DNA of 44,962 bases from Candidatus Liptonbacteria bacterium. GTDB lineage: Bacteria; Patescibacteriota; Minisyncoccia; UBA6257; 2-01-FULL-56-20. The translations under genes and the position numbers were made by a program. The notes under the pieces were generated by a model. That model searched no databases. It was not told the origin of the DNA and worked only from the letters and a program-made list of their open reading frames with translations. Below, in pieces: positions 10,328 through 38,854 of this stretch. The first letter of the stretch is position 1, and each line of letters begins with the position of its first letter. The stretch is from the NCBI GenBank assembly GCA_016186635.1, contig JACPLI010000017.1, positions 1-44,962 on the forward strand, in the 5' to 3' direction.

Positions 10328-10355
10328 ATTTTCCCATTCGCGCGAATGGGAAAAT
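10328..10355. repeat. Perfect 28-bp palindrome ATTTTCCCATTCGCGCGAATGGGAAAAT
   Basis: Exact inverted repeat 3' of purE. Confidence 0.9.
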
Positions 10356-20326: not shown

Positions 20327-20360
20327 GCTATTCAAGTATTTTGCAAAATACTTGAATAGC
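20327..20360. promoter_or_regulatory. Perfect 34-bp palindrome upstream of the winged-helix gene
   Basis: GCTATTCAAGTATTTTGCAAAATACTTGAATAGC; exact dyad; shares 18-bp core with 20709-20746. Confidence 0.9.
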
Positions 20361-20396
20361 AGGAGGATGATACAATATAATACATAATACAAGAGC

Positions 20397-20669
20397 ATGG
20401 AGAACACCTCGCGGGGGCTTGAGCGCATCATCAAGGGGTTTGCGAATCATCGGCGGTTGGAGATAATAGAGCTTCTGAAAAAGAGGCCGGAACTTTCCGT
20501 GGAGGAAATTGCCGACGAACTTCACATGAACTACGAGAATGCCTCGGATCATATTCGCAAACTGGCGATTGCGGGGTTGGTCATGAAGCGTTATGAGGGG
20601 ACAACTGTGCGTCACAAGCTTACGCCTCGGGCAGAAGCCGTACTCACTTTCTGCCGTTCGCTAAAATAG
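20397..20669 (+). CDS. ArsR-like winged-helix transcriptional regulator
   Basis: 90 aa; ANHRRLEIIELLKKRPELSVEEIADELHMNYENASDHIRKLAIAGLV. Confidence 0.85.
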   Translation: MENTSRGLERIIKGFANHRRLEIIELLKKRPELSVEEIADELHMNYENASDHIRKLAIAGLVMKRYEGTTVRHKLTPRAEAVLTFCRSLK

Positions 20670-20708
20670 CCAAAGTGGTCCGTTTGTGCGTCTGGCGTGT
20701 GCGGGAGT

Positions 20709-20746
20709 CTCTTATTTCAGTATTTTGCAAAATACTGAAATAAGAG
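20709..20746. promoter_or_regulatory. Perfect 38-bp palindrome between the winged-helix and DUF559-like genes
   Basis: CTCTTATTTCAGTATTTTGCAAAATACTGAAATAAGAG; same core AGTATTTTGCAAAATACT. Confidence 0.9.
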
Positions 20747-20818: not shown

Positions 20819-21571
20819 ATGTTGGGGAGAAATAAGGAGGAAGCGAGAGTGTTGGTGGGAGTGCTCAAAAATCGCCGCGATCTCGATATTCTTTTGCGGG
20901 AGCGGTGGTACCGGATTCCGGTGCGGCATATGCCGAAGCGGAAGTTTGAGTATATTGCGTTCTACCAGCCGGCGGCGTTTGGGATGAGTGGAAAATGCAT
21001 CCGGTATTATTCCCGCGTGGCGGAGAGGGACATCAAGAAACGCAGGGCATTGTTGCCGGACGAGGCGGCACACCGGCAGGCGGATGCGGATTACGTGCAG
21101 ATTCATGTGCGGAACGTGCGGGAATTGCGGCATCCGGTTCGGAATATTTTGCCCCGGCGGGTGATATTCGGGTTTACCACGCTCGACACGCTTCGGAAGG
21201 CGAGAAATATGCTCGAGGTGTACGGCGTGGCGGACACGGAAACGGTGATGCGTGAGGCGTTGCGCGGCGCGGGCATACGCGCCGTGTTTCAGAAACATCT
21301 CTCCTACGGAAAGAAAGGTGCAAGAAAGCGCTACTGCCTCGACTTCGCGATTTCCTGCAGGCGGGGAGCGGTGGCGATTGAGTGCGATAATACAAAAGCG
21401 CATTCCGGGGCGCGGCAACGGGAGAGAGACAGAGCGAAGGATACGTTTCTCCGGCAGCGCGGATGGACAGTGCTGCGGTTTGCCGAAAAGGATATCATTG
21501 CGAAAATGGAGCATTGCATGGCGCGCGTGCGGCGCGCAGTCCGCACGCTTGGAGGATTAGAACGCCAGTAA
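20819..21571 (+). CDS. DUF559/Vsr-like PD-(D/E)xK protein with extra N-terminal domain
   Basis: 250 aa; YCLDFAISCRRGAVAIECDNTKAHSGARQRERDRAKDTFLRQRGWTVLRF is DUF559-like. Confidence 0.75.
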   Translation: MLGRNKEEARVLVGVLKNRRDLDILLRERWYRIPVRHMPKRKFEYIAFYQPAAFGMSGKCIRYYSRVAERDIKKRRALLPDEAAHRQADADYVQIHVRNVRELRHPVRNILPRRVIFGFTTLDTLRKARNMLEVYGVADTETVMREALRGAGIRAVFQKHLSYGKKGARKRYCLDFAISCRRGAVAIECDNTKAHSGARQRERDRAKDTFLRQRGWTVLRFAEKDIIAKMEHCMARVRRAVRTLGGLERQ

Positions 21572-21621: not shown

Positions 21622-21651
21622 TATGGGCTAATTCGTGCGAATTAGCCCATA
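21622..21651. repeat. Near-perfect 30-bp palindrome TATGGGCTAATTCGTGCGAATTAGCCCATA
   Basis: One central mismatch; core ATTCGNGCGAAT shared with the palindrome after purE. Confidence 0.85.
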
Positions 21652-23437: not shown

Positions 23438-23530
23438 CCGTTTCGAAATTACTTTAAGCAGTAAAACAGCCATGGTTCCACGCGAGCCACCGGTTGTTTT
23501 ATTCTCTCTCGTTCCTTGTGTGCAATATTC

Positions 23531-23550
23531 CAACATTCTTGAGAATGTTG
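23531..23550. repeat. Palindrome CAACATTCTTGAGAATGTTG upstream of a truncated gene copy
   Basis: 9-bp arms, within CAATATTCCAACATTCTTGAGAATGTTGTAATGTTTG; similar modules at 31679-31716. Confidence 0.75.
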
Positions 23551-23566
23551 TAATGTTTGCTTGTGT

Positions 23567-27429: not shown

Positions 27430-27469
27430 GTTCACTCGTGCATTTCACGATGCACTCGCATCAATATGG

Positions 27470-27503
27470 GGAAGTCGGACTTCCTTGAGGAAGTCCGACT
27501 TCC
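27470..27503. repeat. Paired palindromes GGAAGTCGGACTTCC-TTGA-GGAAGTCCGACTTCC
   Basis: Two 15-bp near-palindromes that are reverse complements of each other, between purA and purC. Confidence 0.85.
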
Positions 27504-27597
27504 TAACATTGAAGAGGCGCCCTGCGTGACACATGTGGGACCGCCCGTGATGCGACGTTTATTTTATTCTGGATTCGATGTACAATGGCGGGGATAT

Positions 27598-31678: not shown

Positions 31679-31718
31679 AAAACATTCCAATATTCTATAG
31701 AATGTTGGAATGTTTTTG
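31679..31718 (+). terminator. Intrinsic terminator / palindrome after purH
   Basis: AAAACATTCCAATATTCTATAGAATGTTGGAATGTTTTT directly after the purH stop. Confidence 0.75.
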
Positions 31719-38094: not shown

Positions 38095-38139
38095 TCCTTT
38101 TATACATTTTTTCTTTCTCACTTTGCCTATCTTATAAAT

Positions 38140-38175
38140 TTGTCATAATAGAAACGATCGTCGGAATTATGACAA
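38140..38175. promoter_or_regulatory. 36-bp interrupted palindrome upstream of the PaaX/Cas2-like gene
   Basis: TTGTCATAAT...ACGATCGT...ATTATGACAA, shared dyad axis at 38157/38158; ends 12 bp before the ATG. Confidence 0.9.
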
Positions 38176-38187
38176 CACCATAAAAGC

Positions 38188-38814
38188 ATGCATGGAGATT
38201 TTACTCTGTCGCTCCTCGCGCAGTTAGCGGAGAAAGCGCGTGAGCAAGCCGATTTACTTGAATCCTTTCTCTTGTCTGGTCCTGTGGCGCTCAGTCCGAG
38301 ACTTGTGCAGAGAAAACGCGAACTGCGGCGGCGTATTTATGCGAGGGAGCACAAGGAATATTTTTATGAAGAGCGGAGGAAGATTGAACGAAGATTTTAT
38401 TCGTTATTGCAATGGCTGGAGCGGGACGGAATAGTGGTAAGGAAAGGAAAGAAGAAACTTTCGCTCACGTCCCGCGGTTTCGTGTATCTCAAAAACTTAC
38501 GCTCGAAGAGAGAAAGAGCGGTGCCTTCCCGGGAATATCCCGTTCACAAAAGTGACACACTTATTATGGTTGCGTTTGATATTCCAGAGCGGGAGAAATG
38601 GAAACGCCGGTGGTTCCGAGAGGTGTTGCGCAATTTAGGATTTGTCTTTCTCCAAAAGAGCTTGTGGATAGGAAAAGTGAAGATTCCGGAAGAATTACTC
38701 GAAGACATTGTTCGCCTTGGGCTTGTGGGCAGTGTGGAAATCTTTGAGATAAGCAAGCAGGGGAGTTTGCGCCAGGTCACAGGTGTTCAAGAAAACAAAT
38801 CTAGGTTTTCTTGA
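38188..38814 (+). CDS. PaaX-like/Cas2-fold protein with winged-helix region
   Basis: 208 aa; wHTH-like RFYSLLQWLERDGIVVRKGKKKLSLTSRGFVYL then Cas2/PaaX-like TLIMVAFDIPEREKWKRRWFREVLRNLGFVFLQKSLWIGKVKIPEELLEDIVRLGLVGSVEIFEI. Confidence 0.75.
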   Translation: MHGDFTLSLLAQLAEKAREQADLLESFLLSGPVALSPRLVQRKRELRRRIYAREHKEYFYEERRKIERRFYSLLQWLERDGIVVRKGKKKLSLTSRGFVYLKNLRSKRERAVPSREYPVHKSDTLIMVAFDIPEREKWKRRWFREVLRNLGFVFLQKSLWIGKVKIPEELLEDIVRLGLVGSVEIFEISKQGSLRQVTGVQENKSRFS

Positions 38815-38854
38815 TTTGTCATAAAGTTGACGATCGTCAACTTTATGACAAATC
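38813..38854. promoter_or_regulatory. Perfect 42-bp palindrome overlapping the stop codon of the PaaX/Cas2-like gene
   Basis: GATTTGTCATAAAGTTGACGATCGTCAACTTTATGACAAATC; shares TTGTCATAA...CGATCG...TTATGACAA with 38140-38175. Confidence 0.95.

Follow-up and report, generated by a model that had tools for sequence, protein, structure and literature searches.

ArsR/SmtB repressors such as CadC, CzrA, HlyU and SqrR are among the closest described systems to the locus reported here, which shares with them the fold, the HTH_5 domain and a dyad over promoter-like sequence ahead of the regulator gene. It departs from them in that its palindromes are 36-38 bp long and perfect, stand on both sides of the gene and carry co-varying outer arms. 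REP/RAYT systems comprise extragenic palindromes whose solo copies lie mostly at gene 3' ends, with a gene between two palindromes and strong lineage specificity. The palindromes described below are likewise extragenic and lineage-specific, with solo copies mostly 3' of genes and a palindrome-flanked gene, whereas the cassette gene here encodes a winged-helix regulator without a Y1/HUH domain, and the palindrome family of the studied locus has no solo copies. PaaX-type regulators are resembled by the product of a second cassette at 38.1-38.9 kb, which carries a PaaX_M/Cas2-like domain, but the gene of this cassette sits between two dyads, the downstream one being perfect and 42 bp long. With regard to mutational processes, template switching in E. 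coli turns quasipalindromes into perfect ones (PMC7202029), and in RNA genes it creates, maintains and repairs hairpin stems with multibase compensation (PMC8794818). Complementary arms, multibase and transversional compensation and the dominance of perfect forms are common to those cases and to ours, although here the process, judged from sequence comparison, would act on protein operators spread over the genome rather than on reporter or rRNA genes. No literature on such operators in Patescibacteria was found.

Two perfect palindromes with a common core flank an ArsR-type regulator gene

The window, that is the whole stretch of 44,962 nucleotides analysed, is contig 15 of a 921-kb genome (G000) that is 97.85% complete. 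Within it, the perfect, loopless palindromes P1 (20326-20361, 18-bp arms) and P2 (20709-20746, 19-bp arms), neither assigned to a strand, bracket the gene of a 90-aa winged-helix protein. Both contain the same 18-bp core, AGTATTTTGCAAAATACT, at 20335-20352 in P1 and 20719-20736 in P2 (again without strand), while their arms differ yet are related, a TATTC/TATTT-like box being present in both. The original prediction of two perfect palindromes with one core and different arms therefore holds, with the amendment that P1 is one pair longer than written. With up to three mismatches allowed, the core occurs in the window only at P1 and P2 (0.01 expected), and the genome-wide search that had been proposed revealed that it is not scattered, as only two copies exist in 921 kb even at this tolerance, both in the cassette of the regulator. 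A promoter-like sequence, TTGAAT-18-TATAAT (20352-20381, plus strand), overlaps the right arm of P1 with its -35 hexamer; it has 10 of 12 matches but is weak when taken alone, because 1.3 promoter-like sites of any quality are expected in the region. In many relatives, a TATAAT-like hexamer is also found about 25-40 bp past the dyad centre. P2 was ruled out as an intrinsic terminator (GC-rich stem, loop of 3-8, U-tract), as no U-tract follows the palindrome and the terminator scan gave no call. A known structured RNA was likewise rejected, since no Rfam family matched in the window at gathering cut-offs.

The gene between P1 and P2 (20397-20669, plus strand) encodes an ArsR-type winged-helix regulator. 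Its product matches Pfam HTH_5/ArsR at 1.3e-8, above the cut-off, and its AlphaFold model has a pLDDT of 95. The nearest solved structures to this model are CadC (rank 1, TM 0.85), Mb0332, HlyU and CzrA, placing the protein in the ArsR/SmtB family with its winged-helix fold and alpha5 dimer helix. These data substantiate the winged-helix assignment made from the sequence at the outset. The recognition helix spans about residues 46-58 (YENASDHIRKLAI).

Downstream of P2 lies a nuclease gene (20819-21571, plus strand) of the REase_MTES_1575 (2e-13) and DUF559 (1.4e-8) type, which had been suggested to be controlled jointly with the regulator. This suggestion had to be abandoned, as a second genome of the same genus (G002) keeps P2 without a nuclease beside it, the next gene after P2 there being that of a DEAD helicase. 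The nuclease orthologue of G002 (61% identity) is located about 4.6 kb away, and at none of the loci examined other than that of the window does the nuclease gene adjoin this regulator; it is thus a neighbour of P2 and not a conserved partner. A link to defence was also rejected: PADLOC matches of the winged-helix protein came down to winged-helix domains of a generic kind in Csa3/CARF proteins, and the nuclease gave weak matches.

Arm changes between orthologous sites are compensated

In G002, the neighbour order matches that of the window (DUF5654 gene, regulator, DEAD helicase gene) apart from the absent nuclease, and the orthologous regulator is flanked by both palindromes with the core unchanged. 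Between the two genomes, P1 shows two arm differences and P2 shows four. All six differences are compensated on the opposite arm, none is uncompensated, and two of the six are transversions; the intergenic DNA around the palindromes aligns poorly. When the four sites of both genomes were considered together, the 19 pairs proved to be 100% paired, with one G-U at the outermost position of P1, while six pairs were changed on both sides and eight double-change cells were counted compared with 2.7 in shuffles. The idea that symmetry is kept rather than arm sequence, for which a comparative test of compensatory arm changes had been called for, is well borne out by this result, with six compensated changes set against a constant core.

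The dyad centre follows the recognition helix, the outer pairs do not

Sixty-one homologous regulator loci were examined, of which 37 have a dyad upstream (39 dyads), 13 downstream and 11 on both sides. The 39 upstream centres are situated mostly 21-59 bp ahead of the start codon. Regulators with NASDH-type helices (ENASDH, QNASDH, MNASDH, ENTSDH) are paired with the centre TTTTG/CAAAA in 10 of 10 cases, those with KT-type helices with TTCTN/NAGAA in about 20 of 21, whilst FRT proteins go with CGGAA-type and SFxST proteins with TTCG centres. Judged from these sequences, the dyad centre covaries with the recognition helix of the regulator; Fisher's test on an idealised table (10/0 vs 0/21) gives 2e-8, a statistic that ignores relatedness.

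For the outer pairs, 64 ArsR-associated dyads, a few of them due to chance, were chosen by pairs 2-8 alone, which leaves the pairs further out as an unbiased test. Conserved boxes were located at positions 4-5 and 11-15. Positions 16-19 are almost random in sequence, with an entropy of 1.67-1.93 bits, and are nonetheless paired in 55-69% of cases versus 27-33% expected, position 20 being at background. Broken down by type, pairing at positions 16-19 amounts to 94% in this genus and 77% in the TTCTN group, as opposed to 30% in other genera with the same NASDH helix and TTTTG/CAAAA centre. Because these relatives share helix and core without outer pairing, the latter is evidently not needed for the function of the shared core. 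ArsR homologues of other phyla mostly have short, imperfect dyads, or none was detected.

Perfect palindromes recur across the genome

When arms had to reach 13 bp and gaps were limited to 2, G000 yielded 86 perfect palindromes and G002 50, compared with 0 in a control in which the genome bases were shuffled in 50-base blocks. The 86 palindromes of G000 fall into about ten core families. Of the G000 sites in which pairs 2-8 are perfect, 70 are also perfect over pairs 9-15, three carry one internal mismatch there and a further nine are mismatched solely at the last pair; half-decayed palindromes are almost absent from this genome. According to home-made gene calls, 28 of 70 intergenic palindromes lie between convergent genes, where 15% of the intergenic bases are found (p 2e-7), and only two of 70 in divergent regions, which are avoided. 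Those in convergent regions are mostly PaaX-type solo copies, per listing, and as such regions are not places for promoters, the PaaX-type solo sites may have another role.

One family, A (TGCACC-N6-TATCCCACGTGGGATA-N6'-GGTGCA), occurs in eight copies (contigs C18 11285-12079, C4 32294, C9 37203, C16 53811, C23 14127, C24 271 and C30 40371), two of which flank a 226-aa ORF. Searching with the half-site TGCACCN6TATCCC, the other half being ignored, retrieved eight sites, every one of which has the other half. Their six-base spacers are all different, and still 47 of 48 spacer pairs are complementary. When the family was treated as a structure with G-U allowed, 99.4% of cells pair, G-U pairs being nearly absent from the table. 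Double-change cells amount to 18, whereas shuffles gave 4.6 and no slid version exceeded 6; by a hand count from the table, 11 of the 17 double changes in the spacers are transversional. Many of the double changes are thus transversions, for which a G-U intermediate is impossible. Among the 244 genomes of the order, family A is present in this genome only, and neither it nor the 30-bp P1-type sequence was found as an exact match in viral contigs.

Palindrome-flanked regulators also recur, in the form of ArsR-type and PaaX_M/Cas2-like proteins. In the parallel cassette of the window, a 208-aa regulator with a PaaX_M/Cas2-like domain (38188-38814, plus strand) is enclosed by two strandless dyads centred on ACGATCGT. 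The upstream dyad (38136-38179) has kept its boxes and contains four unpaired spacer pairs, and the downstream one (38813-38854) is a perfect palindrome of 42 bp with 21-bp arms. The parallel drawn earlier between the two loci is hence correct for the layout, with a regulator between dyads, and for the perfect downstream dyad, but not for the upstream dyad, which is imperfect at four positions. PaaX_M/Cas2-like regulators of about 184-220 aa were found between two palindromes in this cassette (38136-38854) and on contigs C8 (4888-5574), C3 (6118-6983) and C17 (43754-44445) of G000. The C3 cassette is syntenic in G002, where the palindrome pair is kept and its sequence changed, the regulator being only 46% identical.

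Proposed operator function and maintenance of the arms

What is ordinary about this locus is its probable autoregulatory ArsR-type operator pair, and what is unusual are the co-varying, sequence-free outer arms, which are encountered genome-wide. The 90-aa protein most likely binds P1 and P2 and represses its own gene. A dimer would very probably read the centre TTTTG/CAAAA plus the TATTC box beside it, each half-site measuring about 15 bp. At P1 it would cover the -35 hexamer and thus bring about autorepression, and at P2 it might mark the gene end and perhaps block read-through, although both roles of P2 are guesses. Arm positions that are not read by the protein would be free to change, but only in step: during replication, the arms of a loopless inverted repeat could template each other, whereby a mutation in one arm would be copied to the other or erased. 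We lean slightly towards the reading that P1 and P2 are the cognate operator pair of the 90-aa ArsR-type protein and that template switching keeps the unread arm positions paired.

Template switching between the arms appears to be the likeliest maintainer of complementarity. The arms are perfect reverse complements irrespective of their sequence, as operators maintained in this manner would be. Moreover, the near-absence of half-decayed palindromes is hard to reconcile with selection for stem stability, under which single mismatches would be tolerated, while arm-to-arm copying predicts it. In none of the 244 genomes of the order does SbcD reach the family cut-off, so there is no contrast within the order. 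ExoVII, whose large subunit is above cut-off in 59 of 244, was not detected in the present genome. Loss of ExoVII was rejected as the cause of long arms, as no correlation was seen among relatives, three of which (G131, G137 and G162) have ExoVII and yet carry 20-22-bp arms. We therefore regard the absence of SbcD and ExoVII as permissive for template switching and not as proof of it. Two observations speak against this process. Pairing ends near position 19 more abruptly than would be expected from simple arm copying, hinting at a length constraint, and the upstream dyad at 38136-38179 has kept its mispaired spacer.

The arms might instead be kept complementary by selection on a folded form, be it a hairpin at either transcript end (5' or 3') in RNA or, in DNA, a hairpin or cruciform read by the regulator, with the core providing specificity and the outer arms stability; we consider this unlikely, though it is the strongest rival of template switching. 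Pairing that extends without sequence preference to about 19 bp and ends at a fairly sharp edge would suit a folded form, as would the long hairpins into which the P1 and P2 sites each fold as lone strands (-24.7 and -20.0 kcal/mol, z about -7) and the location of many palindromes at gene 3' ends, with the excess between convergent genes described above. However, a 19-bp stem should be little affected by one mismatch, and yet mismatched sites are almost absent, G-U pairs are hardly seen either, and outer pairing is missing in relatives with the same core and helix. Besides, P1 lies at and upstream of the -35 hexamer and hence outside the transcript from this promoter, and P2 shows neither the U-tract nor the scan call of a terminator. 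Doubtful to a similar degree is the wider proposal that this patescibacterial group harbors genome-wide modules of regulator plus palindromes, whose sites would be read or kept as folded hairpins with pairing maintained over base identity in most of the arm. Such modules would embrace about ten families of cores, and in several families a small protein of the winged-helix or Cas2-like winged-helix type would belong to the site, its gene lying between two copies.

That P1 and P2 represent nothing but ordinary operators, namely long symmetric sites on which perhaps two dimers lie side by side and 38 bp are read loosely, seems rather improbable to us. Dimeric ArsR proteins do bind dyads, and both the covariation of centre and helix and the promoter-like sequence overlapping P1 would be accounted for, but positions 16-19 are almost devoid of base preference and still paired, the same is true of the family A spacers that differ at every site, and loose reading would give no agreement between the two arms of one site. 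More improbable still are mobile or selfish palindromes of the REP/RAYT kind, for which the small DNA-binding gene would be the mobiliser and solo palindromes the dispersed copies, the two arms agreeing because each copy was made from one arm. The recurrence of cassettes with two palindromes around an ArsR-type or PaaX/Cas2-like regulator would fit this scenario, together with the preference of solo copies for convergent over divergent intergenic space, the confinement of family A to one of 244 genomes and the lack of one solo site at the syntenic place in G002. On the other hand, cassette proteins gave only HTH and PaaX_M/Cas2-like matches, with neither a transposase nor a HUH domain among them, the spacers of family A are not common to its copies, as they should be after recent copying, and the window cassette occupies the corresponding position in G002. 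Its palindrome family, unlike others, has no solo copies in the 921-kb genome, and for this cassette the mobile explanation is already weak.

Base-pair covariation is usually taken as proof of a functional folded RNA. At the present sites, going by sequence comparison, the signal almost certainly resides in protein operators, and it is missing from relatives that share regulator and core. Should template switching be the true cause, covariation would arise from mutation alone, making these genomes a natural laboratory for the process, whereas if selection is responsible, the sites would constitute an operator class whose mode of action involves a folded form. Small genes and sites of 38 bp make both possibilities accessible to experiment.

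Other palindromes of the window and genome

Several further palindromes were recorded. Palindromes centred on ATTCGYGCGAAT are found on contigs C4 (1873 and 3809), C12 (21759) and C21 (15423 and 29637) and in the window at 10328-10355 and 21622-21651. The first five of these ATTCG-centred palindromes listed precede, by 31-41 bp, the start codons of genes for a family of paralogous proteins of roughly 560-610 aa, an arrangement suggestive of a regulon controlled by another ArsR-type protein. Palindromes of a different kind, namely nested repeats built from two GGAAGTCSGACTTCC units, lie in many cases at or near gene starts; they were noted in the window (27461-27512), on contigs C4 (8915), C17 (57864), C18 (7509) and C30 (37087), and elsewhere. 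Perfect 100-bp palindromes at the ends of loci L061 (3242-3341) and L047 (1-100) are probably assembly artefacts at contig ends. Lastly, slightly imperfect copies of the CATTCCAACATTCT dyad are present in the window at 31679-31716 and 23524-23557, and perfect copies elsewhere in the genome on contigs C17 (24738), C23 (11422) and C27 (19277).
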